A stretch of 30,477 nt of DNA from Magnetococcales bacterium (lineage in GTDB: Bacteria > Pseudomonadota > Magnetococcia > Magnetococcales > DC0425bin3). The DNA is taken from contig JADGCJ010000030.1 in the NCBI GenBank assembly GCA_015229045.1, positions 1 to 30,477 of the forward strand, written 5' to 3'. How positions within the stretch are numbered: position 1 is the first letter of the stretch; each line of letters begins with the position of its first letter. This document shows positions 2,804-30,339 of the stretch, in pieces. The position numbers and the translations under genes were made by a program. Below the pieces are notes generated by a model. That model had not been told where the DNA came from and did no database searches. It was given only the letters and a program-made list of their open reading frames with translations.

Positions 2804-3409
2804 ATGCATTACATGAATAGACGCACGTTGGTCCTGGCCGCAGGGGTGGTGGTCGGAGGATTATGGAGCGTTCCGGCCATGGCTGGTCCTACACCGTCGA
2901 TGCTGAGCAATACATGTGCCGGGTGTCATGGCCTGAATGGCGTGGCACCTGGGCCGTCCATTCCGTCGATCGCCGGGATGCCCGTCAATTTTTTAAAACA
3001 GATGATGACCGAATACATGAAGGATGAACGGCCATCGACCATCATGGGCCGAGTCGCGAAGGGCTACAGCGACATTGAAATTGAAGCCATCGCCAAACAT
3101 TTTTCCGAGCTGAAGTGGGGTTCTTACAGTGGAGCCTCGGTCAAGGGTAAGGCCCCTGACCCGGACAAGGCACAAAAAGGAAAAAGCCTGGCCAAAGAGT
3201 GCGAAAAATGCCACGAAGAGGGTGGCAAGAAACAGGATGAAGATACACCCCGACTGGCCGGGCAGTGGTTGGAATACCTGTTGGTCAAGGTCGATGACTA
3301 TAAGACCAACGAGAAATATCCTCAGCCCAAAAAGATGAAGAGTCAGATGGACAAGCTATCCGTTGAGGATTTGGAAGCGGTCTCACACTACTTCGCCAGC
3401 CAGAAATAA
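2804..3409 (+). CDS. fccA: flavocytochrome c sulfide dehydrogenase, dihaem cytochrome subunit
   Basis: This 201-residue exported protein is a dihaem c-type cytochrome. Its signal peptide ends near AMA-GP (about residue 27). The two CXXCH haem sites are CAGCH at 38-42 and CEKCH at 133-137, one in each of two tandem cytochrome domains. M81 and M178 or M182 are candidate axial ligands. Length and two-domain layout fit FccA, which passes electrons from the FccB flavin to a soluble cytochrome in the periplasm. The gene directly downstream is fccB, which makes the assignment firm. The start is taken at ATG 2804 after GGAGGGAGAG; the in-frame ATG at 2813 is an alternative. Confidence 0.88.
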   Translation: MHYMNRRTLVLAAGVVVGGLWSVPAMAGPTPSMLSNTCAGCHGLNGVAPGPSIPSIAGMPVNFLKQMMTEYMKDERPSTIMGRVAKGYSDIEIEAIAKHFSELKWGSYSGASVKGKAPDPDKAQKGKSLAKECEKCHEEGGKKQDEDTPRLAGQWLEYLLVKVDDYKTNEKYPQPKKMKSQMDKLSVEDLEAVSHYFASQK

Positions 3410-3431
3410 CGGGCAAGAGGAGAGAAATATC

Positions 3432-4712
3432 ATGTATGATCTGACACGTCGTCGTTTTGTCAAGTTGACTGGTGGTCTTGCTGCAGCTGGCCTGACCGCT
3501 CCGTTGTTCTCTTCGTCGGCCCGTGCCAACCAGGGCAAGAAGCATGTCGTGGTCATCGGGGGGGGGTATGGTGGAGCCATCGCCGCCAAGTATTTGCATG
3601 TGGCCGACCCCAGCATTGCCGTGACCCTGATCGAGAAAGAGAAGATCTACTACTCCTGTCCCCTGAGCAACCCGGTCATTGTCGGCATCCGCGACATGAA
3701 AGTGCAAAGATGGGGCTACGATCATCTTCTCAAACACGGCGTCAATGTCCAGCACGATGAGGTGGTGGAGATTGATCCGGTCAAAAGGACAGTCGCGACA
3801 GCCAAGGGCTTGTCGTTCTCCTACGACAAACTGGTCGTTTCGCCCGGGGTGGACTTCAAGTGGGACGCCATCGAAGGGTATACCGAAAAGGCCAGCGAGA
3901 AGATGCCCCACGGCTGGAAAGCCGGTCCGCAGACCCTGTTGTTGCAGGAGCAGTTGGGTGCCATGAAAGATGGCGACCCCTACATCATCGTGGCTCCGCC
4001 CATGCCTTTCCGTTGCCCCCCCGGTCCCTACGAGCGGGCAGGTCTGGTGGCTTGGTATCTGAAGAAACATAAACCCAGATCCAAGGTCATCATCCTGGAT
4101 GCCAAGGACAAGTTTGCCAAACAGTCCCTCTTTGTGAATGGTTGGAAAGAGCTTGGCTACAACGTTGAGTGGGTGCCGGTGAACGAAGGTGGCAAAGTGA
4201 CGCGGGTGGACGCAGAGAACATGTCCGTCCACACGGAGATGCAAGAGTACAAAAGCTCGGCCATCAACATCATTCCGCCACAAAAGGCTGGCAAGATTGC
4301 CCACGCCGCAGGCCTGGTCGATAAATCGGGTTGGTGTCCGGTCAACCAGAAAACTTTTGAATCGACGCTTCACAAGGATATCTACGTCATTGGCGATGCG
4401 TGTATCGCCACGGCAGAAATTCCCAAGTCAGGGTTTGCCGCCAACAGCGAAGCCAAAATTGCCGCAGCCGCCATCGTGGCTGCCTTCAAGGGCGAAGGTG
4501 AACCGGATCCCTCTTACGTCAATACCTGCTACAGCCTGCTGGCCCCGGACTATGGGATTTCCGTCGCTGCTGTCTGGGCTTACAGAAATAATGCCGTAAC
4601 CAAGGTTTCCGGCGGGGTTTCGCCCGAAAAGGCCTCGGCTGCTTTTCGCAAGCAGGAAGCCTCGTATGCCGAAAGCTGGTACCAGAGCATCATGGCAGAA
4701 ATGTTCTCCTGA
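3432..4712 (+). CDS. fccB: flavocytochrome c sulfide dehydrogenase, FAD subunit
   Basis: The 426-residue protein oxidises sulfide to sulfur or polysulfide in the periplasm and reduces FccA. A Tat signal (RRRFVKLTGG, residues 6-15) precedes a Rossmann FAD site (GGGYGG, 43-48). C76 (YYSCPLSN) sits where FccB binds FAD covalently. C195 (RCPPGPYERA) and C366 (NTCYSLLAPDYG) match the redox-active pair by spacing from the family. The C-terminal 75 residues are the FCSD flavin-binding domain. The ATG at 3432 is chosen because the Tat motif begins 5 residues later and a GGAGAG precedes it; an upstream in-frame ATG at 3363 lies inside fccA. It follows fccA by 22 bp and ends at a terminator. Confidence 0.92.
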   Translation: MYDLTRRRFVKLTGGLAAAGLTAPLFSSSARANQGKKHVVVIGGGYGGAIAAKYLHVADPSIAVTLIEKEKIYYSCPLSNPVIVGIRDMKVQRWGYDHLLKHGVNVQHDEVVEIDPVKRTVATAKGLSFSYDKLVVSPGVDFKWDAIEGYTEKASEKMPHGWKAGPQTLLLQEQLGAMKDGDPYIIVAPPMPFRCPPGPYERAGLVAWYLKKHKPRSKVIILDAKDKFAKQSLFVNGWKELGYNVEWVPVNEGGKVTRVDAENMSVHTEMQEYKSSAINIIPPQKAGKIAHAAGLVDKSGWCPVNQKTFESTLHKDIYVIGDACIATAEIPKSGFAANSEAKIAAAAIVAAFKGEGEPDPSYVNTCYSLLAPDYGISVAAVWAYRNNAVTKVSGGVSPEKASAAFRKQEASYAESWYQSIMAEMFS

Positions 4713-19503: not shown

Positions 19504-20658
19504 ATGATACCTCTTGCCGTGCCGGATCTCACGGGGAATGAAGCGAAATATTTGCAAGAGTGCATCACCTCGACGTTTGTGTCGTCGGTGGGGCCTTTTG
19601 TCGATCGGTTCGAGGCCATGGTCGCCGAGGCGGCAGGTTCGGCGCGGGCGGTGGCGACCTCGGCGGGGACGACAGGTCTGCATGCCGCCCTGACCGCCGT
19701 CGGCGTGGGGCGTGACGACCTGGTGATTCTGCCCGCGTACACGTTTATCGGCAGCGCCAATGCCGTGGCCCATTGTGGGGCGCTGCCCTGGCTGTTGGAT
19801 GTGGAGACGGCAGGGTGGACCCTTGATCCGGAGCAACTGGAGATCGAGCTGTGCCAGCGTACCGAACGTCGCGGAGAGCGGCAGGTGATTCATCGTCCCA
19901 GCGGGCGACGGGTGGCGGCGGTGATGCCGGTCCATGTTCTGGGCACACCGGCGGACATGGCCTCCATCGTGGCGATAGCCAGGCGGCATGGATTGCCGGT
20001 GGTGGCCGATGGTGCGGCAGCTCTGGGGGCACGCGCCAACGGTCATCCAATCGGGGCGCTCGGGGCCGATTTGACGGTTTTTTCCTTCAATGGCAACAAG
20101 ACGGTCACTTGTGGCGGCGGCGGCGCGGTGAGCGGCGATGACCCGGCGTTGCTCGATCTGGTCCGGCATTTGACCACCACGGCGCGCCGGGGTGAGGATT
20201 ATGATCATGATCGGGTGGGCTTCAACTATCGCATGACCAACATTCAGGCGGCGGTGGGGTGTGCGCAGCTGGAGCGTCTCGACACGTTGCTGGCCGCCAA
20301 GCGTCGCATCCGTGCCCGTTATGATGCCGTTTGCCGGGATTTGCCCGGGGTGGCGCCGTTTCCGGTTCCGGCGTGGGCCGAGAGCGCCTGCTGGTTCTCT
20401 GGATTGCTGCTCCCTGCAGCCATGGACGCCGAGGCGCTGCGCGGACTCTATCGTGCGTTTCGCGAGCAGGGCGTTGCGGCGCGCTCGTTTTGGAAGCCCA
20501 TTCATGGGCAGGTGCCTTTTCGGGATGCCCCCCGCGCCCGGTTGCCGGTCACGGAATCCATCGCCCCGCGCATTCTGACTCTGCCCTGCTCGGCGGGTCT
20601 GAGCGAGAAGGATCTGGAGCATGTCGTTGCCGTGGTGCGCCAATTGTTGACAGAGTAG
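19504..20658 (+). CDS. legC: LegC-family PLP-dependent aminotransferase (DegT/DnrJ/EryC1)
   Basis: The 384-residue enzyme is a DegT/DnrJ/EryC1 sugar aminotransferase. The PLP lysine is K199 in FSFNGNKTVTCGGGGA, the cofactor-contacting Asp is D169 (VVADGAAALG) and the phosphate-binding AGTTGLH is at 54-60. The N-terminus MIPLAVPDLTGNEAKYL..C and SSVGPFVDRFE are typical of the LegC group, which aminates C4 of a 4-keto-6-deoxy-N-acetylhexosamine nucleotide in the nonulosonate (legionaminic acid) route. The ATG at 19504 is preceded by AGGGGAAA. It starts the plus-strand cluster and must have a promoter in or near the short divergent gap. The 4,6-dehydratase that would make its substrate is not in the window. 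Confidence 0.87.
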   Translation: MIPLAVPDLTGNEAKYLQECITSTFVSSVGPFVDRFEAMVAEAAGSARAVATSAGTTGLHAALTAVGVGRDDLVILPAYTFIGSANAVAHCGALPWLLDVETAGWTLDPEQLEIELCQRTERRGERQVIHRPSGRRVAAVMPVHVLGTPADMASIVAIARRHGLPVVADGAAALGARANGHPIGALGADLTVFSFNGNKTVTCGGGGAVSGDDPALLDLVRHLTTTARRGEDYDHDRVGFNYRMTNIQAAVGCAQLERLDTLLAAKRRIRARYDAVCRDLPGVAPFPVPAWAESACWFSGLLLPAAMDAEALRGLYRAFREQGVAARSFWKPIHGQVPFRDAPRARLPVTESIAPRILTLPCSAGLSEKDLEHVVAVVRQLLTE

Positions 20659-20678: not shown

Positions 20679-20803
20679 ATTCCAATTCCAGATCAAGATG
20701 GATGCGAGGCGACAACGAGTGAGCGACGAGACAGTACGTGTTGGGTACGGCGAGGAGCGAGTGAGGCAGTCAACGAAGCAGACGCTTGATCTGGAGTTGG
20801 AAT
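20679..20803. mobile_element. 125-bp MITE-like element with 19-bp terminal inverted repeats
   Basis: The left end ATTCCAATTCCAGATCAAG (20679-20697) is repeated in inverted form at 20785-20803 with 17 of 19 positions matching. The interior (gcgaggcgacaacgagtgag and a second cgagtgagg motif) is repetitive and non-coding. The end of this element lies 3 bp before the epimerase start codon, and its right arm contains the GGAG that serves as that gene's ribosome-binding site. A solo copy of the end is at 21985-22003. Target-site duplications were not identified. Confidence 0.7.
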
Positions 20804-20806
20804 AAG

Positions 20807-21985
20807 ATGCGAACCATTTGTGTGGTGACAGGTTCACGCGCCGACTATGGGCACCTTGAGTGGATCATGCGCGAGATCCGGGAGTACCCCGGGTTGCGCT
20901 TGCAGGTGGTGGCGACCGGCATGCACCTGTCGCCGGAGTTTGGCATGACGGTCAGGGAGATTGAACGGGACGGTTTTCGCATCGATGGCCGGGTGGAGAT
21001 GCTCCTTTCGGCGGACTCCGGCGTGGCCATTGCCAAGTCCCTGGGGCTGGGCGTCATCGGTTTTGCCGACCTCCTGGAGAGATTGCGGCCTGATGTGTTG
21101 CTGCTCCTGGGGGATCGTTTCGAGGCGTTGGCGGCGGTGTTGGCAGCCCTGCCGGCGCGCATCCCGGTGGCGCATATCCATGGCGGTGAGGCGTCGGAAG
21201 GGGTGATGGATGAAGCCATTCGCCATGCCCTGACCAAAATGGCCCATCTGCACTTTACCGCCGCCCTTCCTTATCGGCAGCGGGTGATTCAGTTGGGCGA
21301 GGATCCAGGCCGGGTCTTTGCCACAGGTACGCCGGGACTCGACCACATCACCCGCACACCGCTCCTGGATCGGGAGAGGTGGCAGCAGGAGACCGGCTTC
21401 ACCCTCGGTTCGACCAACATACTGGTGACCTATCACCCGGTCACCTTGAACGAGGAGGGGCCGGAGGCGGCCATCGACGCCATCCTGACGGCGCTGGAGG
21501 CCTTTCCGGAAGCCCGGATTCTTTTCACCCATCCCAATGCCGACACGGCGGGGCGCATCATTCAGCAACGGGTCGATGGCTGGGTGGCCAGACATGCCCA
21601 ACAGGCGCTGGTGGTGGCAAACCTGGGCACGGTGCGTTATCTGAGCGCCCTGCGCTGCATGGACATCATGCTGGGCAACTCTTCGAGCGCCCTGATCGAG
21701 GCCCCCTGTTTCAAACTGCCGGCGGTCAATCTGGGGGATCGGCAGCGGGGCCGGTTGAAGGCCGCTTCGGTGATCGATTGTGCCGAACATGCCGAGGCGA
21801 TTGTGCGGGCGCTGCGCAAAGGGTTGGATCCGCAGTTCCGGCAGGGTCTGGAGGGCATGGTTCCCCCTTATGGCCAGGGGGATGCCGCCCGCAGGATTGT
21901 CGCGACCCTGGCCACCTTTCCCCTGGAAGGGATCCTGAAAAAACAGTTTCACGACTTCAACCCCGGTGATTTTCTTGTGACCTGA
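20807..21985 (+). CDS. neuC: UDP/GDP-N-acetylglucosamine-type hydrolysing 2-epimerase (NeuC/LegG family)
   Basis: The enzyme (392 residues) hydrolyses a nucleotide-sugar and inverts C2, giving the free hexosamine that the nonulosonate synthase condenses with phosphoenolpyruvate. Family features seen are VTGSRADYGHLEW at the N-terminus, LLLLGDRFEALAA, HIHGGEASEG..DEAIRHALTKMAHLHF and the C-terminal LGNSSSALIEAP. In a legionaminic-type pathway it would be LegG, acting on the 2,4-diacetamido sugar; in a sialic-type pathway NeuC. The presence of a LegC aminotransferase favours the former. The start at 20807 uses a GGAG inside the right arm of the adjacent 125-bp element. An in-frame ATT/TTG further up would put codons inside that element. 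Confidence 0.88.
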   Translation: MRTICVVTGSRADYGHLEWIMREIREYPGLRLQVVATGMHLSPEFGMTVREIERDGFRIDGRVEMLLSADSGVAIAKSLGLGVIGFADLLERLRPDVLLLLGDRFEALAAVLAALPARIPVAHIHGGEASEGVMDEAIRHALTKMAHLHFTAALPYRQRVIQLGEDPGRVFATGTPGLDHITRTPLLDRERWQQETGFTLGSTNILVTYHPVTLNEEGPEAAIDAILTALEAFPEARILFTHPNADTAGRIIQQRVDGWVARHAQQALVVANLGTVRYLSALRCMDIMLGNSSSALIEAPCFKLPAVNLGDRQRGRLKAASVIDCAEHAEAIVRALRKGLDPQFRQGLEGMVPPYGQGDAARRIVATLATFPLEGILKKQFHDFNPGDFLVT

Positions 21986-22037: not shown

Positions 22038-22937
22038 ATGTCCGAACAGGAACGATCCCGTTTGTATGAGCAGATGGTCACGATCCGGGGCTTCGAGCGG
22101 CTTCTGGAGGATCTGTTCAAGCGCAACCTGCTGTTTGGCACCACGCACAGTTGCGCGGGTCAGGAGGCGGCTGCCGTGGGCTTGATGGCGGCTCTGGCGC
22201 CCGGCGATCTGGTGACCGGGCATCATCGCAGCCATGGGCACTATCTGGCGCGCACGGATGATGTGACCGGATTGCTCGCCGAGATCATGGGGCGGCAGGG
22301 GGGTGTGGTGGGGGGTCGGGGTGGAAGCCAGCATCTGTGCGGTGGTGGATTCATCTCCAACGGCATCCAGGGGTCGATGGTGCCGGTGGCCGCCGGCATG
22401 GCCCTGGCGGAAAAGGTCGCTGGCAGCGGCGCTGTGGTGGTGTGCTGCATCGGCGACGGCACCCTGGGGCAGGGGGTGGTCTATGAGACCCTGAATCTTG
22501 CCGCCCTGTGGTCGCTGCCGCTCCTGATCGTGGTGGAGAACAACCAGTATGCGATGAGTTCCCCCGTGGCCAGCACGGTGGCCGGCTCCATGACGGCGCG
22601 AGCCGAGGCCTTTGCCGTGGAGGCCGCAGAGATCACCTCCAACGACGTCGAACAGATTCTTGCAGCGGCGCGGGAGATCGTCGCCCGGGTCCGCGAGAGG
22701 TGTCGTCCCTTTTTCTGGGTCATTCACACCTATCGCCAGGCTGGCCACAGCAAGAGCGATGATTGTTGCTACCGGAGTCGGGAAGAGGAACACCAATGGG
22801 CTCTTCAGGATCCCCTGCTGTTGGCGGCGCCGCGGCTTGATCCCCGCTTGCGGGAGGCGATCGATCAGCGCTGTGCCGATCGATTGCAGGGGGCACTGAA
22901 AGCGGCCCAAGAGATGCCCTTGGCGGAGGCCCTGTGA
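22038..22937 (+). CDS. 2-oxoacid dehydrogenase E1 component, alpha subunit
   Basis: The 299-residue protein is the thiamine-diphosphate-binding alpha half of an E1 of the pyruvate/branched-chain/acetoin type. The TPP motif GDGTLGQGVVYETLNLAALW...VVENNQYA spans about 139-172, and the heterotetramer-type N-terminus (MVTIRGFERLLEDLF..N..FGTTHSCAGQEA) and RGGSQHL active-site loop are present. It decarboxylates a 2-oxoacid and reductively acylates a lipoyl arm. It lies in a nonulosonate cluster rather than with a normal E2/E3, so its substrate is open (pyruvate gives acetyl, longer oxoacids give other acyl groups). A GAGAGGAG lies 7 bases before ATG 22038. The beta subunit gene overlaps its end (GTGA). 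Confidence 0.9.
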   Translation: MSEQERSRLYEQMVTIRGFERLLEDLFKRNLLFGTTHSCAGQEAAAVGLMAALAPGDLVTGHHRSHGHYLARTDDVTGLLAEIMGRQGGVVGGRGGSQHLCGGGFISNGIQGSMVPVAAGMALAEKVAGSGAVVVCCIGDGTLGQGVVYETLNLAALWSLPLLIVVENNQYAMSSPVASTVAGSMTARAEAFAVEAAEITSNDVEQILAAAREIVARVRERCRPFFWVIHTYRQAGHSKSDDCCYRSREEEHQWALQDPLLLAAPRLDPRLREAIDQRCADRLQGALKAAQEMPLAEAL

Positions 22938-23986
22938 CGCTCACCTGTGGACAATCCATTCAGCAGGGGTTGGCGCGAGCCATGGCCGCCGATCCCCGCG
23001 TTCATCTGCTCGGCGAGGATGTACGGGATCCCTACGGCGGGGCCTTCAAGATGAGCAAGGGGCTTTCCAGCCGTTTCCCCGACCGGGTGCACAACACCCC
23101 CATCAGCGAGGCGACCCTGGTGGGGGTGGGCATCGGCCTGGCGGTACGGGGGGCGAGGCCGGTGGTGGAGATCATGTTTGGCGATTTCATCACCCTGATT
23201 GCCGATCAATTGATCAACAATGCCGGAAAATTTTCCTGGATGTACAACGGCCAGGTGACGGTTCCCTTGGTGGTGCGCACCCCGATGGGGGGGCGTCGGG
23301 GTTATGGCGCCACGCATAGCCAGTGTCTGGAGAAATTATACCTGGGGGTGCCGGGATTGACGGTGGTCGCTCCCAGCCATCTGCACGACCCCGGAGAGCT
23401 GTTGCAGCGGACCATTCTCGAAGGTGAGGGCACGGTTCTTTTTATTGAACATAAAGGGGATTATGGGCGCCGGATCGCCGTGCCGGAAGAGGGCATGATC
23501 GGTTCCTGGCATGTCCGGAGCGGTGGTGGGGGATATCCGACCATTGCCCTGTCGGCGACTGCTTTTCGCGATGATCGCCTGACGGTGGTCACCTATGGCG
23601 GCATGGTGCCGGTGGTCATGGAGGCCATGGAACGGTTGTTGCTTGACGAAGAGGTGACTGCGGAGATTGTCGTTCCTGCGCGGCTCTCGCCGCTGGATGT
23701 TTCCCCTTTGCTGGCGAGTCTGGAGCGGACCGGGCGCCTGCTGGTGGCCGAGGAGGGAACCTTGACCGGCGGCTGGGGTGCGGAGGTGGTGGCAACCCTG
23801 CTGGCGACGGCGAGACATGGGCACGGAGCCATACCGATACGACGGGTGGCGGCGCGTGATCTGCCCATCGGCAGCGCTCCCACCCTGGAGAACCGTACCC
23901 TGCCCGGTGTCAAGGATGTGGCTGCGGCGGCGTTGGCGTTGTTGCAGGGGCATGGCAGCGCGACAGGAGGCATGACGACTGCGTGA
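22934..23986 (+). CDS. 2-oxoacid dehydrogenase E1 component, beta subunit
   Basis: The protein (350 residues) begins at GTG 22934, overlapping the stop of the alpha gene (GTGA). It has the transketolase pyrimidine-binding domain (LTCGQSIQQGLARAM..DPRVHLLGEDV, then HNTPISEATLVGVGIGLA, and VVEIMFGDFITLIADQLINNAGKF) and the C-terminal transketolase domain (LTVVTYGGMV..., LSPLD, LLVAEEGTLTGGWGAEV). This is the standard beta subunit fold that completes the E1 active site. It lacks a lipoyl domain of its own. The next gene, encoding a lipoyl protein, follows with its GTG option overlapping this stop, so the three genes are probably translated together. Confidence 0.9.
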   Translation: MTLTCGQSIQQGLARAMAADPRVHLLGEDVRDPYGGAFKMSKGLSSRFPDRVHNTPISEATLVGVGIGLAVRGARPVVEIMFGDFITLIADQLINNAGKFSWMYNGQVTVPLVVRTPMGGRRGYGATHSQCLEKLYLGVPGLTVVAPSHLHDPGELLQRTILEGEGTVLFIEHKGDYGRRIAVPEEGMIGSWHVRSGGGGYPTIALSATAFRDDRLTVVTYGGMVPVVMEAMERLLLDEEVTAEIVVPARLSPLDVSPLLASLERTGRLLVAEEGTLTGGWGAEVVATLLATARHGHGAIPIRRVAARDLPIGSAPTLENRTLPGVKDVAAAALALLQGHGSATGGMTTA

Positions 23987-24042
23987 TCTCTCGACAAGCC
24001 CGGGATGGAGTGTCAGACATACCATGGAAGGATCAGTATCTC

Positions 24043-25836
24043 ATGTTGCCTATCGTCATTCCCCGACTCAACGATAATGATGATTTCGTGACCTTGTTGG
24101 AGTGGCTGGTTCCGGCTGGGAGTTTCGTCTCTGCCGGCGACCCGCTCTATTGCGTCGAGACCACCAAGGCCGCCGTCGATCTCCAGGCCGAGGGGGCAGG
24201 GTATCTGCACCCTCTGGCGGAACCGGGGCGCGAGCTGGCTGTGGGGGCGGTTGTCGGTCATTTGACAGCCTCGCGGGACGAGGTTGTTTCCGTTTCGCCT
24301 CCTGTTGCCGATGTGCTTCGGCCATCACCTTCCCCCGTGCCTCTCCCCGTGGTTGCGGAGGCATCGTCCTCCTCCCCGCTCGTTGTTCCGCCTGGTTCCG
24401 CTGTCGGCGTGACCTTTTCACGCAAGGCGGCGGAGTTGATCAAGACCCTCGGTGTCGATCCGGCCCTTTTCACCGGACGGGGGGTGCTGCGCGAGCAGGA
24501 TGTGCGGGCGGTGCTGGCGCGGCAGGGGAGGGGAGAGACTCCGGTTCCTGGGCCGTCATCCGCCACGCCGGAGACGTTGCCGTCCGCGTCGGCGGGCGAC
24601 GGGCGGGTGAATCCTGCCTTTCTGGAGCAGATACGTCGGTTTCCGGAGGCGTTTGGCGCGTTGCCATCGGCGTTCAAGGTGTGGCTGTACCGGCAAAACG
24701 GTGCCCTTGTCGGCGAGCGGGTTGTTCTGGGGGTGGGAACCATCCTCGATGCCGAACGGATCGAGATCGGCGCCGATACGCTCATCGGGGAGCGCGTCCA
24801 GGTGCGCTGCCAGGAGTTTTGCCTGGGGGTGTTGGGCGAGATCGGTGACAACACCAGGATTTTCTGTGGTCGTTTCCTGGCCGGATCGACGGTCGGGATT
24901 CGTTTCGACACCGTCTTTGTCGGGGCGGGCAGCGGGCGGGTGTGTCGTATCGGCGACAACAGCTTCATTGCCTACGATGTCTACGTCAACCTGGATCGTG
25001 ACGTCACGCTGGGGCGGCATGTGTGTCTGGCCCCGGGGGTGCGTCTGTATACCCATCGCAAGTGGTTGTCGCCGCTGGAGGGATTCTCCACCGGCTTTGC
25101 CCCGGTGGTCATTGGGGATGATAGCCATCTGGGCAGCGGTGTCGTTGTTTTGCCCGGGGTGGAGATCGGTCCCCGGGTGACGGTGATGGCCAATTCGGTG
25201 GTGGCGGCGCATGTGGGGGCGGAGCGTCTCATGGGAGGGATTCCCGCCCAGCCGGTGGGCAAACAGACCCAGTATCGACGGCAACTGACCCTGGAGGAGA
25301 AGGTGCGCATCGCCCGGAAAAATCTCCTGATCTGCGCCGAGACCCTGGTCCAGGCCGGGGTGCGGGTGGAGGAGGTTCATGAAATTGGTCCCGAGGGCGG
25401 CTCCGGGGGTTTGACCATGACCCTGATCCAGGGTGTGGAGAGGCTGGTCGTCCATTTTCAGCCGGGTGGGATGGGCGACGATCTGCTTGACTCTGCGCAG
25501 CGGGATGGGGGGAGTGCCTCTTCTGTCCGGCGGCTTCTGCTTGGTTTTTCGCCGACCCTTCTCGAGCGGGCCTCGTCGCTGGTGACGGTGATCGATCTGG
25601 GGCAACACCGCATACGGGGTCGGCGCGATGCCTTGAGCGATCTGTTGCGGCAACATTTGGCCAACCTGGGGTTGGAGTTGGCCCCCGGGGCGTGGCGTTT
25701 GGGTCGTCCGGGGCCGTTTCCGCCTGATCGATACGATACCGATACCGATACCGCTTCCGGTCCGGTTTCTGCCGATCTGCCAGCCGTGACCGATGCGGTT
25801 CGGCAAACGCAACCAAGGGAGAAACCGGCATGTTGA
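24043..25836 (+). CDS. E2-like lipoyl/E3-binding protein fused to a hexapeptide (LbH) acyltransferase domain
   Basis: This 597-residue fusion starts with a lipoyl domain (residues 1-78; lipoylation lysine K42 in VETTKAAVDL). A Pro/Ser-rich linker leads to a peripheral-subunit-binding domain (about 124-158, FSRKAAELIKTLGVDPALF..GVLREQDV). A left-handed beta-helix follows (about 225-405), with repeats such as LGVGTILDAERIEIGADTLIG, IGDNSFIAYDVYVN, LAPGVRLYTHRKWL (H338 a possible catalytic His) and HLGSGVVVLPGVEIGPRVTV. A C-terminal region (406-597) has no motif I recognise. Unlike every E2, there is no catalytic core with the HxxxDG motif; the hexapeptide domain takes its place. I infer that it accepts acyl from lipoyl and passes it to an amino sugar. 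The ATG at 24043 fits the lipoyl domain; a GTG at 23983 overlapping the E1-beta stop is a possible earlier start. Confidence 0.82.
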   Translation: MLPIVIPRLNDNDDFVTLLEWLVPAGSFVSAGDPLYCVETTKAAVDLQAEGAGYLHPLAEPGRELAVGAVVGHLTASRDEVVSVSPPVADVLRPSPSPVPLPVVAEASSSSPLVVPPGSAVGVTFSRKAAELIKTLGVDPALFTGRGVLREQDVRAVLARQGRGETPVPGPSSATPETLPSASAGDGRVNPAFLEQIRRFPEAFGALPSAFKVWLYRQNGALVGERVVLGVGTILDAERIEIGADTLIGERVQVRCQEFCLGVLGEIGDNTRIFCGRFLAGSTVGIRFDTVFVGAGSGRVCRIGDNSFIAYDVYVNLDRDVTLGRHVCLAPGVRLYTHRKWLSPLEGFSTGFAPVVIGDDSHLGSGVVVLPGVEIGPRVTVMANSVVAAHVGAERLMGGIPAQPVGKQTQYRRQLTLEEKVRIARKNLLICAETLVQAGVRVEEVHEIGPEGGSGGLTMTLIQGVERLVVHFQPGGMGDDLLDSAQRDGGSASSVRRLLLGFSPTLLERASSLVTVIDLGQHRIRGRRDALSDLLRQHLANLGLELAPGAWRLGRPGPFPPDRYDTDTDTASGPVSADLPAVTDAVRQTQPREKPAC

Positions 25837-26834
25837 CCATCGTCATGTACCACTATGTACGCGACATGCCCAGCACCCCCTGGCCCGCCATCAAGGGGTT
25901 GTTGACCAGCCATTTCGAGGGACAGCTCGACTATATCCGGCGTCACTACAGCGTGTGTACGCTGGAGCAGCTTCTGGCCGCGACCCGGGATGAGGGTGAC
26001 CCCTTGCCGGAGAATGCCTGCCTGCTGACTTTCGATGACGGTCTGCGCGACCATTACGAGACGGTTTTGCCGCGCCTGTTGGACCGGAAGATGACCGGGT
26101 GTTTTTTTCCCATCGCCGACCCGGTGGAGAACCGGGAGGTGGTCATCGTCCACAAGGTGCATCACATTCTGGCCGCTGGCGTCGAGATGGAGCGGTTGTT
26201 TCACGAACTGCTGGAGCTGATCGATGCCTGGCGGGAGGCCTACGAGCTGCCGCCGACCGATGATCTTCTGGCCTCCTGCATCCCCGGGGCGGTGCGTTAT
26301 GACGACGCCCGCACGATTCAATTCAAGCGTCTCTTGCAGCAGGCCCTGCCGCGTCAGGCGGCCTGGGCCATTGCCGGGGAGCTGTTCCAGAGGCATGTCA
26401 CGGCGGACGAGGCGGGGTTTGCCGAGGAGTTCTATCTCAATGTGGAGCAGCTGCGGGAGATGGTCGCTGTCGGCATGGGGATCGGCGGCCATGGGGTGCG
26501 TCACGACTGGATGGAGCACCTTTCCCGGCAGAGTCAGCGGGAAAAAATGCTCCGCTCCCGGGCATTTTTGTCCCGGATCCTGGGTGAACCACCGACCGAA
26601 TGGATCATGAACTACCCGTATGGAAGTCACGACACCCGGACCGTTGGGGTGGCGCAGGAGATTCCCGGCTGTCGGTTGGCGGTGACGACCCGGCCCGGAC
26701 TGGTGGCAGATTTTTCCCGGCCCTATCAACTGCCCAGGCTCGATACCAACGATCTGCCCAGGACAGCCGATGCGGCTCCGTGCGCCTGGACGCGGACGGT
26801 TCAGGAAGCCGCCGCCCGGAAGTTGGCATCGTAA
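25830..26834 (+). CDS. NodB-type polysaccharide deacetylase-family protein (CE4)
   Basis: The 334-residue protein has NodB homology motifs: TFDDG (D69, D70), HGVRH (H221, H225, the HxxxH metal pair) and NYPYGSHD (about 261-268, corresponding to RxPYG with Arg replaced by Asn). The start MLTIVMYHYVRD is typical. Such enzymes remove N-acetyl (or O-acetyl) groups from amino sugars using a divalent metal. An insert between motifs 1 and 2 (about 100-210) is longer than usual. It overlaps the lipoyl fusion gene by 7 bp, so it is coupled with it. It could deacetylate a nonulosonate precursor, or another sugar, before a new acyl group is added; that role is inference. No signal peptide is seen, so it may act in the cytoplasm. 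Confidence 0.82.
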   Translation: MLTIVMYHYVRDMPSTPWPAIKGLLTSHFEGQLDYIRRHYSVCTLEQLLAATRDEGDPLPENACLLTFDDGLRDHYETVLPRLLDRKMTGCFFPIADPVENREVVIVHKVHHILAAGVEMERLFHELLELIDAWREAYELPPTDDLLASCIPGAVRYDDARTIQFKRLLQQALPRQAAWAIAGELFQRHVTADEAGFAEEFYLNVEQLREMVAVGMGIGGHGVRHDWMEHLSRQSQREKMLRSRAFLSRILGEPPTEWIMNYPYGSHDTRTVGVAQEIPGCRLAVTTRPGLVADFSRPYQLPRLDTNDLPRTADAAPCAWTRTVQEAAARKLAS

Positions 26835-26865
26835 AAGGCGATCAACTCAACAAGGAGTCGAGGGA

Positions 26866-27951
26866 ATGGGAATTCTCTGCCCGGGTCGTTGTGCCCTCAT
26901 TGCCGAAGCGGGGGTCAATCATAACGGCTCTCTGGATCTGGCCCTGAAGCTGGTGGACGCAGCCGCAGCAGCCGGGGCGGATGCCGTGAAGTTTCAAACC
27001 TTTCGGGCCGATCGGCTGGTCAGTCGACAGGCGCCCAAGGCCAGATATCAACAGCTCACCACCGACCCGGACGAATCCCAGTGGCGCATGATCCAGCGCC
27101 TGGAACTGGACGCGGCGGCCCATCGACGCTTGCGGGAGCATTGTCAGGCGGCAGGAATTGCCTTCCTCTCCAGTCCGTTTGACGTGGAGAGCCTGGAGTT
27201 TCTGGTCAACGATCTGGGAATGACAACCCTGAAGATTCCCTCCGGGGAGTTGACCAACGGTCCTTTGTTGCTGGCGGCAGGTCGTTCGGGGCGGGAGATC
27301 ATCCTCTCGACCGGCATGGCCACCCTGGCGGAGATCGAGGCGGCGCTGGGGGTTCTGGCCTTTGGCCTGTTGCAGGTGGCTGCCCCGCCGGGACGGGCCG
27401 CGTTCCAGGACGCCTTCATTTCCGCTGCCGGGGGGCGGGTTTTGCGAGAGCAGGCATGCTTGTTGCATTGTACGACAGAGTATCCGGCCCCGTTTGCCGA
27501 GGTCAATTTGCGGGGGATGGATACCCTGCACACGGCCTTTGGTTTGCCGACAGGGTATTCGGATCACACCGAGGGTGTGGCGGTGGCCCTGGCCGCCGTG
27601 GCGCGGGGAGCGGTGCTGGTGGAAAAGCACTTCACCCTGGATCGGGCGTTGCCCGGGCCGGATCACCGCGCTTCGCTGGAACCACATGAACTGGCCGCCA
27701 TGGTCCGGGGTATCCGGGCGGTGGAGGCCGCCCTGGGGGAGGGGCGCAAGGTGCCCACACCCACGGAGTTGAGCAATCGGGATGTGGCCCGCAAGAGCCT
27801 GGTGGCCTTGCGGGAGATCCCTGCCGGGACGCTCTTTTCGGCGGACAACCTGGGGGCGAGACGACCAGGAACAGGTCTCTCCCCCATGGGGTGGTGGGAG
27901 CTGTTGGGCCAACCGGCACCACGTGATTATGTCAAGGATCAGGAAATTTGA
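26866..27951 (+). CDS. neuB: nonulosonic acid synthase (NeuB/LegI family)
   Basis: The 361-residue enzyme condenses phosphoenolpyruvate with a 6-carbon amino sugar to form a nine-carbon nonulosonic acid. The TIM-barrel part has ALIAEAGVNHNGSLDLALKLVD, AGADAVKFQTFRADRLVS, LSSPFDVESLEFL, LKIPSGELTN, LSTGMATLAEIEAAL, LLHCTTEYPAPF and GYSDHTEGVAVALAAV. The C-terminal 55 residues are the SAF (antifreeze-like) lid, RKSLVALREIPAGTLFSADNL. A perfect AAGGAG sits 8 bases before ATG 26866; upstream in-frame ATG 26770 is inside the deacetylase gene. It is the core enzyme of the cluster. Whether the product is legionaminic or another nonulosonate cannot be read from the sequence alone. Confidence 0.92.
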   Translation: MGILCPGRCALIAEAGVNHNGSLDLALKLVDAAAAAGADAVKFQTFRADRLVSRQAPKARYQQLTTDPDESQWRMIQRLELDAAAHRRLREHCQAAGIAFLSSPFDVESLEFLVNDLGMTTLKIPSGELTNGPLLLAAGRSGREIILSTGMATLAEIEAALGVLAFGLLQVAAPPGRAAFQDAFISAAGGRVLREQACLLHCTTEYPAPFAEVNLRGMDTLHTAFGLPTGYSDHTEGVAVALAAVARGAVLVEKHFTLDRALPGPDHRASLEPHELAAMVRGIRAVEAALGEGRKVPTPTELSNRDVARKSLVALREIPAGTLFSADNLGARRPGTGLSPMGWWELLGQPAPRDYVKDQEI

Positions 27952-28595
27952 TGAGCGACAAGTTGCTTGTTCTGGGCGGCGGTGGACATGCCCAGGTGGT
28001 GATGGAGACCATGATCAGCCTGGAGTGGCGGGAGCGCATCCTCGGCATTCTCGACGCCGATCCTGGCCATGTGCCGGAGAACCCCTTCGCCATCCCGGTG
28101 CTGGGTACGGATGAAGAGCTGGAACGGTTTCCCCCCGCATTGGCACAACTCGTCAACGGGTTGGGTACGGTGGGCAGGGATCATCATCGGGAGAGGCTGT
28201 TTCGGGAGCTGCAACGGCAGGGGTATCGCTTTCCATCGCTGGTGCATCCGGATGCGGTGGTGGCCCGGGGAGTGCGGGTGGGGGCTGGCGCCCAGATCAT
28301 GGCCGGTGCCGTGGTGCAGGTGGGATCGGTGGTGGGAGAGAATGCCATCGTCAACACCGGGGCGGTCGTCGATCACGACGGGACCGTGGGTGCCCATGCC
28401 CATGTCGGGCCTGGCGCCGTGCTGTGCGGCGGTGTCAGAGTGGACGAAGGGGCGTTGGTCGGGGCGGGGGCAACCATCATCCAGGGGGTCCATGTGGGGC
28501 ACCACGCCGTGGTAGGGGCCGGCGCGGTGGTGGTGCGCGATGTAGCGGACGGGATGCGCATGGCTGGCGTCCCGGCGCGGGAGTTACCCGAATGA
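27951..28595 (+). CDS. neuD: NeuD/PglD-type hexapeptide acetyltransferase
   Basis: The 214-residue protein has the N-terminal Rossmann-like part (LLVLGGGGHAQVVMETM) and the C-terminal left-handed beta-helix (HPDAVVARGVRVGAGAQIMAGAVVQ...VDHDGTVGAHAHVGPGAVLCGGVRV...VVGAGAVVVRDV) of NeuD/PglD/LegH enzymes. These N-acetylate a 4-amino sugar using acetyl-CoA. H128-region residues (IVNTGAVVDHDG) hold the catalytic His-Asp. It starts at ATG 27951, sharing the last base of the neuB stop (TGATG), and ends overlapping the next gene (ATGA). Its presence means the cluster already has a CoA-dependent acyltransferase, so the lipoyl fusion is a second, different one. Confidence 0.9.
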   Translation: MSDKLLVLGGGGHAQVVMETMISLEWRERILGILDADPGHVPENPFAIPVLGTDEELERFPPALAQLVNGLGTVGRDHHRERLFRELQRQGYRFPSLVHPDAVVARGVRVGAGAQIMAGAVVQVGSVVGENAIVNTGAVVDHDGTVGAHAHVGPGAVLCGGVRVDEGALVGAGATIIQGVHVGHHAVVGAGAVVVRDVADGMRMAGVPARELPE

Positions 28596-29644
28596 AACAT
28601 GACTGGCGCAAGGTCCTGGTGGGACCAGAGCTGCCGATCTTCCACGCCCTCGAGGTGATGAACCAGGGGGCCATTAAAGTGGTGATCGTTGTGGACGACA
28701 ATCGACATCTCCTGGGGATCGTGACCGACGGCGACGTCAGACGCGGTTTCCTCAATCGTATCGATCTCAATGCTCCGATCCGGTCGGTCATGAGCAGTTC
28801 GCCGACCGTGGCCAGGGTCTCGGATGGGCAGGAAAGCATTCGCTCCCTGATGGTGGCGCGTGGCCTCGACCACATTCCGGTGGTGGATGATGCGGGCCGC
28901 CTGGTGGGGTTGAATACCCTCTCGGAGCTGGCACGCCCTCAGGTCAAGGACAACTGGGTCGTCCTCATGGCCGGTGGCCTGGGCAGCCGTCTCGGACGCC
29001 TGACGGAGCAGTGCCCGAAACCTCTGCTGCACGTTGGTTCCAAGCCCATCCTGGAGATTATCCTGGAAAGCTTCATCGAACACGGGTTTCACCGTTTCTT
29101 CCTGTCGGTCAACTATCGCAAGGAGATGATCCAGGAGCATTTTGGTGACGGTTCCCGCTGGGGCGTGACCATCGAATACCTGGAAGAGAACGACCGTCTG
29201 GGGACGGCGGGGTCGCTGGCGTTGCTGCCCGACATTCCGGACAAGCCCTTCTTTGTCATGAACGGGGATCTGCTGACCCGGATCAACTACTCGAACGTCC
29301 TGGAATTTCACAAGGAACATGAAGCCGATGCCACCTTGTGCGTGCGCAAGGTCGAGCAGACCGTCCCTTACGGGGTGGTGGAGACCGATCGGCATCGCCT
29401 CGTCAACATTGTCGAGAAACCTGTTCAGCAATACTTTGTCAATGCTGGTATCTATCTTTTGAATCCGCAGGTTGTCTCCTTCGTGCCGGAGAGCGGATAT
29501 TTTGACATGACCGATCTGTTTCGCAAACTGGTCGAGTTGGGGCGGACCACCGCAGCCTTTTCGTTTTTGGACTATTGGCTGGACATTGGCCGTCTGGGTG
29601 ATTTTCAACAGGCGTGTCAGGATTATCCAAAGGTGTTCGAATGA
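28592..29644 (+). CDS. CBS-domain nucleotidyltransferase (PtmE-like hexosamine-1-phosphate guanylyl/uridylyltransferase)
   Basis: The 350-residue protein has two CBS domains (about residues 1-115: KVVIVVDDNRHLLGIVTDGDVRR and LDHIPVVDDAGRLVGLNTLSEL) followed by a nucleotidyltransferase domain (VVLMAGGLGSRLGRLTEQCPKPLLHVGSKPI, then FFVMNGDLLT and the C-terminal DYWLDIGRLGDF). This architecture is known from PtmE of the Campylobacter legionaminic pathway, which makes GDP-glucosamine. It suggests that the sugar here is carried as a GDP (or UDP) derivative rather than the usual UDP-GlcNAc of sialic acid synthesis. CBS domains may sense an adenine nucleotide. It begins at ATG 28592 (ATGA overlap with neuD) and overlaps the CMP-synthetase gene at its end (ATGA). 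A longer upstream frame is not coding. Confidence 0.87.
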   Translation: MKHDWRKVLVGPELPIFHALEVMNQGAIKVVIVVDDNRHLLGIVTDGDVRRGFLNRIDLNAPIRSVMSSSPTVARVSDGQESIRSLMVARGLDHIPVVDDAGRLVGLNTLSELARPQVKDNWVVLMAGGLGSRLGRLTEQCPKPLLHVGSKPILEIILESFIEHGFHRFFLSVNYRKEMIQEHFGDGSRWGVTIEYLEENDRLGTAGSLALLPDIPDKPFFVMNGDLLTRINYSNVLEFHKEHEADATLCVRKVEQTVPYGVVETDRHRLVNIVEKPVQQYFVNAGIYLLNPQVVSFVPESGYFDMTDLFRKLVELGRTTAAFSFLDYWLDIGRLGDFQQACQDYPKVFE

Positions 29645-30339
29645 TTCAGGGCAAGCGCGTTTTGGCGGTGATACCAGCCCGGGGCGGTTCCAAGGGGATT
29701 CCCCGCAAGAATATTTGCGATCTGGCCGGCAAGCCTTTGCTGGCCTGGAGCGTCGAAGTGGGGAGGGAGTGCAACTGTATCGACCGGCTCATTTTGTCAT
29801 CGGAGGATGCCGAGATCATCGCCACGGCGCAGGCCTGGGGGTGTGATGTCCCTTTCGTCCGCCCCCTGGAGCTGGCCCAGGATGATTCGCCCACCATTCC
29901 GGTCTTGATTCATGCCCTGGATGCCTTGCCGGAGAGTTATGACTATCTGGTTCTGCTTCAGGTGACCTCTCCCCTGCGGCAGGCGTCCGATATCGTTGCC
30001 TGCCTGGAGATGTGTGAACACAATCAGGCGCCCGCCTGTGTCACCCTGGTGGAGACCCATCAAAATCCCCAGTACATGTACAGGCTGGATCCGTCTGGTC
30101 ACATGCTGCCGGTCCTGGGGCCGAAGTCGGGCACCGCCCACATCCGGCGGCAGGATCTGCCCAAAGCCTTCGCCTTGAACGGGGCGGTGTGTGTGGCGCG
30201 TGTTCCCTGGTTGCGGGAGCACCGGACTTTTCTGGGCGAGAGTACGCTGGGTCATGTCATGCCGCCGGAACGTTCCCTGGATATCGACACTCGCCTGGAT
30301 CTGCTCCTGGCCCGGGCCATCCTTGCGGCCAGGGAGTGA
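29641..30339 (+). CDS. neuA: CMP-nonulosonate cytidylyltransferase (NeuA/LegF family)
   Basis: The 232-residue enzyme activates the nonulosonic acid as a CMP derivative for a glycosyltransferase. It has the cytidylyltransferase signature VLAVIPARGGSKGIPRKNI, then LAGKPLLAWSVEV, LILSSEDAEIIATA, LLQVTSPLRQASDI, FALNGAVCVAR and the C-terminal DIDTRLDLLLARAIL. ATG 29641 overlaps the stop of the preceding CBS gene (ATGA). It completes the free sugar to activated sugar route after neuC and neuB. No further cluster gene is visible before the window end. Confidence 0.92.
   Translation: MIQGKRVLAVIPARGGSKGIPRKNICDLAGKPLLAWSVEVGRECNCIDRLILSSEDAEIIATAQAWGCDVPFVRPLELAQDDSPTIPVLIHALDALPESYDYLVLLQVTSPLRQASDIVACLEMCEHNQAPACVTLVETHQNPQYMYRLDPSGHMLPVLGPKSGTAHIRRQDLPKAFALNGAVCVARVPWLREHRTFLGESTLGHVMPPERSLDIDTRLDLLLARAILAARE

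Follow-up and report, generated by a model that had tools for sequence, protein, structure and literature searches.

A lipoyl arm on a hexapeptide acyltransferase in a Magnetococcales nonulosonate cluster: a putative CoA-free branch of the 2-oxoacid dehydrogenase family

Why would a gene cluster for nonulosonic acid biosynthesis carry its own 2-oxoacid decarboxylase and, next to it, an acyltransferase with a lipoyl arm? The question is raised by contig JADGCJ010000030.1 of a Magnetococcales bacterium (assembly GCA_015229045.1), whose 30,477 nucleotides, the whole stretch analyzed here, are referred to as the window. In it, genes for the decarboxylase subunits E1-alpha and E1-beta are followed by a gene for a fusion of a lipoyl domain with a left-handed beta-helix (LbH), or hexapeptide, acyltransferase. 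Bacterial N-acylation of sugars has been described with acyl-coenzyme A (CoA) or acyl-acyl carrier protein (ACP) donors. Judging from sequence, the three genes probably encode a biosynthetic complex of the 2-oxoacid dehydrogenase type, in which the acyl group is passed from the lipoyl group via the LbH domain to a sugar instead of to CoA. The observed basis consists of the domains, an invariant lipoyl lysine, a dedicated E1 clade, recurrence with two kinds of LbH head, and a locus that carries a dihydrolipoyl dehydrogenase (E3) as well. The window fusion is no isolated oddity but belongs, as one branch, to a larger modular family. The original prediction for this DNA, an E2-like protein that hands an acyl group made by E1 straight to a sugar, gained from the domains, the dedicated E1 and a second locus; its subunit-binding domain was recovered through relatives and a structural model only.

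Domain organization of the fusion and its E1 partners

E1-alpha (positions 22038–22937; all window features given here are on the + strand) is a subunit of a thiamine diphosphate (ThDP)-dependent 2-oxoacid decarboxylase (PF00676, 3.2e-56), and E1-beta (22934–23986; PF02779, 4.2e-30; PF02780, 6.3e-19) was placed by E1-beta trees in the clade of arm-adjacent E1 described below. The E1_dh, Transket_pyr and Transketolase_C domains were all present, as seen with Pfam and in alignments to the E1 of pyruvate dehydrogenase (PDH). The best solved relative of E1-alpha was a mitochondrial PDH E1-alpha (166 bits vs 94 bits for branched-chain E1-alpha), and its TIGR03182 match (250 bits) did not reach the cut-off of 393.85. 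E59 and H128 of E1-beta were invariant in nine aligned clade rows, which came from all but two (L001 and G283) of the eleven arm loci known at that stage.

The fusion gene (24043–25836) encodes 597 amino acids; its start is probably the ATG at 24043, near the starts of aligned homologues, with an in-frame alternative GTG at 23983. The lipoyl domain and the hexapeptide beta-helix of the original prediction both exceeded Pfam cut-offs. The former (residues 1–80, 24043–24282; PF00364, 2.7e-6) carries K42, the lipoyl lysine, as part of the motif ETTKA (codon checked at 24166–24168). The LbH core (about residues 210–396, 24670–25230; PF00132, 2.7e-13) appeared in the AlphaFold2 model as a beta-helix at about 223–396, and its nearest solved relatives by sequence were hexapeptide acetyltransferases (best E 4.2e-15), several of them named maltose or galactoside acetyltransferase. 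Within the core, a THRKW motif (residues 337–341, 25051–25065) is a possible catalytic loop. For the domain of the peripheral-subunit-binding type (residues 122–162, 24406–24528), PF02817 matched relatives and not the window protein; the model has helices at 127–136 and 151–162, and the profile of the family could be aligned along both the lipoyl and the subunit-binding region of an E. coli E2p chain (i-Evalue 8.8e-11). Linkers were of low confidence in the model and are probably flexible. The CAT domain with its HxxxDG motif (PF00198) was not found in the fusion or in the five other cluster proteins scanned with Pfam, and, in agreement with the prediction, none turned up elsewhere in the operon in the proteins examined (six with Pfam, ten with NCBIfam). 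The prediction did not include a C-terminal alpha/beta domain (about residues 412–545, 25276–25677), which was seen in the AlphaFold2 model and gave no Pfam match up to E 10. It was not identified by structure because other matches filled the results: lipoyl and biotinyl domains the Foldseek list obtained with the window model, and the same domains plus various beta-helices that of VIA-align.

Relatives of the window fusion

Searching 5.8 billion proteins yielded 47 matches, of which 45, with the window protein included and several partial, formed the window-type family with a WcaF-like LbH head; the remaining two (P0046 and P0047) were ordinary E2 proteins by Pfam domains. After partial and near-identical members were dropped, 26 of the 45 were aligned. 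K42, E39, T40 and THRKW were invariant in all 26, and Pfam detected the lipoyl domain in 16, E3_binding (PF02817) in 15 and the hexapeptide repeat in all 26. One member was labelled Actinomycetota, and the rest were unnamed or had a general acetyltransferase label.

The gene order of the window, which the prediction advised looking for elsewhere, recurred in another genome, Magnetococcales bacterium HA3dbin3. This locus, L001, matches the window from the aminotransferase to the CMP-transferase as read from open reading frames (ORFs), and its fusion, E1-beta, NeuD and deacetylase were confirmed by search. Elsewhere the same genome encodes a 473-aa E2 of ordinary composition; that organism thus has another lipoyl-arm protein besides the fusion. 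L001 was the sole genome locus of the window type found besides the window. When the single window protein was the query, no relatives were seen in genome contigs, and the window-type alignment found L001 only; recall of this search was limited because two short peptide patterns were used. In the class of G001, most of the fusion was present in 1 of 48 genomes and the arm alone in 4 more (cut-off 1e-25), and the search therefore turned to other heads.

The same arm on NeuD-type and CAT-type heads

A second type of fusion, in which the lipoyl arm precedes a NeuD/PerB-type head with a PglD_N domain and an LbH with the catalytic His, comprised 74 proteins longer than 300 aa, query included. The lipoyl lysine was as invariant in the 42 of these that were aligned as in the 26 window-type rows. 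With a cut-off of 1e-50, the NeuD-type alignment matched 5 of 398 genomes of a phylum sample, only G283 itself among 337 genomes of its class, and 5 of 369 in the class of G385 (2 fused and 3 standalone NeuD). No match was found for P0062 in plasmids (tblastn), nor for either the window-type or the NeuD-type alignment in viral contigs.

In all six NeuD-type loci examined (G170, G385, G283, G062, G252 and G740), E1 was the next gene, with its subunits separate or fused. Among 33 standalone NeuD controls, none had E1 within 1.5 kb; these were 30 loci, drawn from the 68 matches listed and screened up to 1.5 kb on each side, plus L028, L029 and L030 (15.6 to 19.8 kb). Adjacency to E1 thus differed between fused LbH loci (7/7, window excluded) and standalone NeuD (0/33; Fisher's p 5e-8), although not every locus is independent of the others, and the control L068 comes from the L001 cluster itself, where it is the NeuD and E1 lies a few kb away.

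Several of these loci had sugar genes. In G385, PseB, PseC and PseF exceeded their cut-offs; in G740 an aminotransferase adjoins the fusion; and G062 has open frames that read by eye as flagellins and an aminotransferase. The G252 run is the most informative. It holds a CMP-transferase that falls short of its cut-off, NeuB (389 bits, narrowly missing the cut-off of 399.65), NeuC (above its cut-off), E3 (447 bits, cut-off 408.8), a polysaccharide deacetylase that is a distant relative of the window one, a fused E1 and the lipoyl-NeuD protein. As a separate observation, L019 (9323–16424) holds a lipoyl-NeuD fusion and a fused E1 in a run with PseF, PseC and PseB, near open frames resembling flagellar regulators by eye, and is likely a locus for flagellin pseudaminic acid.

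Both LbH types share one kind of E1. A tree of 24 E1-beta sequences, taken from 13 genomes and the window, placed the 11 that adjoin an arm in a single clade (100/100, 100% of bootstraps, 0/500 shuffles) and left the 13 others outside. A nine-member profile of this clade, used with the arm disregarded, matched 12 of 299 genomes at 1e-70. New among these were G038, G267, G143 and two places in G023. G038 and both G023 places were inside the clade and had, directly downstream, a lipoyl-arm fusion with a CAT-type head; G267 and G143, the weakest matches, were outside it, in ordinary-looking 2-oxoacid dehydrogenase operons. In the enlarged tree, 14 arm-locus E1-beta formed one clade at 100/100, apart from 15 others. 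The 14 loci carry WcaF-like LbH heads in two cases (window and L001), NeuD-type LbH heads in six and CAT-type heads in six. A search with the arm region alone also added CAT-type relatives (P0137–P0140). Among the six CAT-type heads the HxxxDG motif reads HxxxNG in three close relatives and HxxxDG, HxxxEG and HxxxAG once each. We read the heads as exchangeable: WcaF-like LbH, PerB/NeuD-like LbH, and CAT-like, mostly with an altered HxxxDG. We lean, with some reserve, towards a CoA-free biosynthetic family of 2-oxoacid dehydrogenases, in which one E1 clade and one type of arm would serve exchangeable heads, tie oxidative decarboxylation directly to the acylation of amino sugars of flagella, capsules or lipopolysaccharides, and so set the acyl groups of these sugars.

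Residues around the catalytic histidine of fused heads

In the NeuD-type enzyme Pcryo_0637, the base is likely to be His 142, and the oxyanion hole is formed by the Gly 160 amide (PMC8040287). We compared all 74 fused proteins with 33 standalone ones (30 loci and the NeuD proteins of the window, L028 and L029); the comparison reads residues near the catalytic His, not CoA contacts directly. This His was kept in 74/74 fused and 33/33 standalone proteins. At the Gly 160 position (His +18), Gly was present in 33/33 standalone proteins, whereas fused heads had Ser in 58/74. The residue preceding His was Asp or Glu in 33/33 standalone proteins vs Ala or Pro in 73/74 fused ones, and a Lys 25 columns upstream of His was found in 73/74 fused and 0/33 standalone proteins. 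The GxP turn that ends the LbH was retained. By sequence, the fused heads are intact yet altered where donor and acceptor meet.

Proposed route of the acyl group

In the route proposed here, the donor (acyl-lipoyl), the acceptor (a sugar amine), the acyl group itself and the swap by the deacetylase are all inferred. E1-alpha/beta would decarboxylate a small 2-oxoacid on ThDP and reductively acylate the lipoyl group on K42. The LbH core, reached by the acyl-dihydrolipoyl group on its flexible arm, would then move the acyl group to the amine (or a hydroxyl) of a sugar of the nonulosonate pathway, bypassing CoA. Since the dihydrolipoyl group must be re-oxidised after transfer, E3 docked via the subunit-binding domain could do so, which would explain both this domain and the E3 gene in G252. 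Deacetylase genes in the runs of the window, L001 and G252 suggest an exchange of N-acetyl for another acyl group: the deacetylase probably strips N-acetyl and frees the amine, so that deacetylase and fusion together would replace one N-acyl group with another. The standalone NeuD of the window would make the other, ordinary acetamido group.

The fusion resembles the E2 of 2-oxoacid dehydrogenase complexes in its lipoyl domain, probably flexible linkers, putative domain of the subunit-binding type and adjoining E1-alpha/beta, but it lacks the CAT domain and has an LbH acyltransferase core and a C-terminal domain. The second fused type shares with NeuD, PglD and PerB the fold, the catalytic His and, in several loci, a sugar cluster; the fusions differ in adding a lipoyl arm and E1, which likely replace free acyl-CoA, and in the residues around His. 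LpxA and LpxD are LbH acyltransferases that are fed by a protein-tethered acyl thioester, acyl-ACP; their carrier is a separate ACP with phosphopantetheine, whereas that of the window fusion is a fused lipoyl domain. No lipoyl-LbH fusion was described in the literature searched, a scope that most subscription papers fell outside. "Lipoylation" in one paper (PMC4875605) denotes decoration of flagellin glycans with fatty acids and not a lipoyl domain.

If the proposed route is correct, a donor tethered to lipoyl would join central 2-oxoacid metabolism to surface glycans in a new way and could account for uncommon N-acyl groups on nonulosonic acids; 2-oxoacid dehydrogenase complexes would prove to be modular machines in which a swap of the head changes the acceptor. 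Annotations would need correction: sources that name the fusions at all call them isoleucine-patch acetyltransferase, NeuD-family O-acetyltransferase, UDP-perosamine 4-acetyltransferase, biotin/lipoyl-containing or hypothetical protein.

Contrary observations and alternative explanations

Several observations weigh against transfer from lipoyl to sugar. PF02817 gave no match in the window fusion in Pfam even at E up to 10, and in the L001 genome it matched the ordinary E2 and not the fusion. By structure, tapirins and pectate lyases matched the window beta-helix about as well as GlmU/LpxA, which matched at 12 A root mean square deviation. H338 is invariant (26/26) but, in a gapless alignment with one hexapeptide acetyltransferase relative, lies two residues before the His of that enzyme. 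The proposed route does not account for the C-terminal domain, parts of which are conserved in the family. The window type is uncommon, with a match in 1 of 398 genomes when the phylum was sampled (cut-off 1e-40), and its link to E1 consists of two related loci, window and L001, whose E1-beta are 81% identical. Solved relatives of the window E1-beta did not separate types (PDH 163 and 150 bits vs branched-chain 147), and, because any E1 tends to adjoin a lipoyl E2, the arms found beside newly matched E1 speak for a single clade more than for the LbH reading. Of the 11 arm loci screened for E3, G252 alone was positive, and in the other ten a housekeeping E3 would have to serve. For G170 (a 3 kb contig), G283 and G062, searches confirmed no sugar or nonulosonate gene next to the fusion. 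The altered residues of fused NeuD heads fit a different donor and could also reflect kinship or acceptor; the oxyanion Gly is retained in 16/74 of them, and two standalone NeuD-type proteins, P0117 and P0118 (213 and 212 aa), show by eye the fused-head signature with no arm, which may be a separate gene.

The LbH head might instead be an ordinary acyl-CoA-dependent sugar acetyltransferase, with arm and E1 generating or channelling acyl-CoA locally (through the CAT domain of another E2) or acting as a scaffold. Such an arrangement would agree with the acetyltransferases among the nearest solved relatives, many NeuD/PerB ones of which were solved with CoA, with the GxP turn of the fused heads (P in 72/74), and with the ordinary-type E2 elsewhere in the L001 genome; the maltose and galactoside acetyltransferases nearest to the window type also use CoA. 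However, the scanned cluster proteins contain no CAT domain, the lipoyl lysine need not then stay invariant across two LbH families, and fused NeuD heads differ from standalone ones around the catalytic His. We regard this explanation as unlikely. A somewhat better case, although still a tentative one, can be made for E1 as a ketol transferase like QncN, which would take a two-carbon unit from a ketose phosphate and yield an N-glycolyl nonulosonate or amino sugar; this would be a special form of lipoyl-to-sugar transfer and does not compete with it. PMC6335953 proposes such chemistry for QncN/QncL and SclQ2–4, with E1-type subunits and a lipoyl domain before the acyltransferase; in it, the E1-type and lipoyl subunits of QncN/QncL/QncM load a glycolyl group onto ACP, and therefore an E1-lipoyl unit can serve something other than CoA. 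As there described, the Qnc and SclQ1–4 systems resemble the window genes in that ThDP-dependent E1-type, lipoyl and acyltransferase parts deliver an acyl group to an acceptor other than CoA (PMC6335953), and differ in that the acceptor is ACP, for peptide natural products, whereas here LbH heads lie in sugar clusters. The window E1, on the other hand, is nearer to PDH than to transketolase in a comparison that covers solved structures and NCBIfam.

The acceptor could also be an acyl carrier protein or a lipid. One CAT-head locus (L098) adjoins a protein with a phosphopantetheinyl transferase domain, and three of eight LbH-headed fusions (G170, G283, G062) had no search-confirmed sugar genes; the five others (window, L001, G385, G252, G740) did have search-confirmed aminotransferase or nonulosonate genes, and the head of the second LbH type belongs with PerB/NeuD, which makes such an acceptor improbable. 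That the fusion is a decayed or chance product with no function agrees only with the failure of Pfam to match a subunit-binding domain and, given the invariant residues in 26 and 42 diverse rows, the open frame, the tight spacing and the recurrence with E1, is hardly credible. Transfer from lipoyl to sugar is the explanation that we favor.

Neighboring genes and other observations

The order of E1-alpha, E1-beta and fusion between neuC and neuB was confirmed with Pfam and NCBIfam, as was the nonulosonate character of the cluster, where NeuC, NeuB and NeuD all exceeded NCBIfam cut-offs. Upstream lie a LegC-type aminotransferase (19504–20658; best match TIGR04181, 386 bits, cut-off of 420 not reached) and a hydrolysing 2-epimerase of the NeuC/LegG type (20786–21985; TIGR03568, 446 bits, cut-off 235.9). 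Downstream, a NodB-type polysaccharide deacetylase (25830–26834; PF01522, 1.7e-19) overlaps the fusion gene by 7 bases; it has an 80% identical counterpart in L001 and a distant relative in L022. It is followed by a NeuB-type nonulosonate synthase (26770–27951, start uncertain within the ORF; TIGR03569, 464 bits, cut-off 399.65) and a standalone NeuD sugar acetyltransferase lacking a lipoyl arm (27948–28595; TIGR03570, 217 bits, cut-off 160.8). The best NCBIfam matches of the next two genes, like that of the aminotransferase, were below cut-off: a sugar-1-phosphate nucleotidyltransferase (28592–29644; TIGR03992, 141 bits vs 292.1) and a CMP-nonulosonate synthetase (29614–30339; TIGR03584, 148 bits vs 205.7). 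Cytochrome c and flavocytochrome c sulfide dehydrogenase genes at 2804–4709 of the window suggest that its host is a sulfide oxidiser.

Some CAT-type loci showed additional features. Four of them (L011, 7656–10804; L012, 7758–10906; L013, 1–2402; L099, 3–2099) combine a clade E1 with a lipoyl-CAT protein in which the Asp of HxxxDG is lost (NG or AG), and a methyltransferase was seen downstream of each fusion (by Pfam in L011, by eye in the others). In L098 (4271–10071), the clade E1 and lipoyl-CAT protein (HxxxEG), with the adjoining phosphopantetheinyl transferase-domain protein, are accompanied by a HAD-like protein resembling FkbH by eye, and the locus may be a system for loading acyl-ACP. 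In L097 (5314–9580), the clade E1 occurs with a lipoyl-CAT head that has a cysteine-containing C-terminal tail, and a separate hexapeptide-repeat protein adjoins it.

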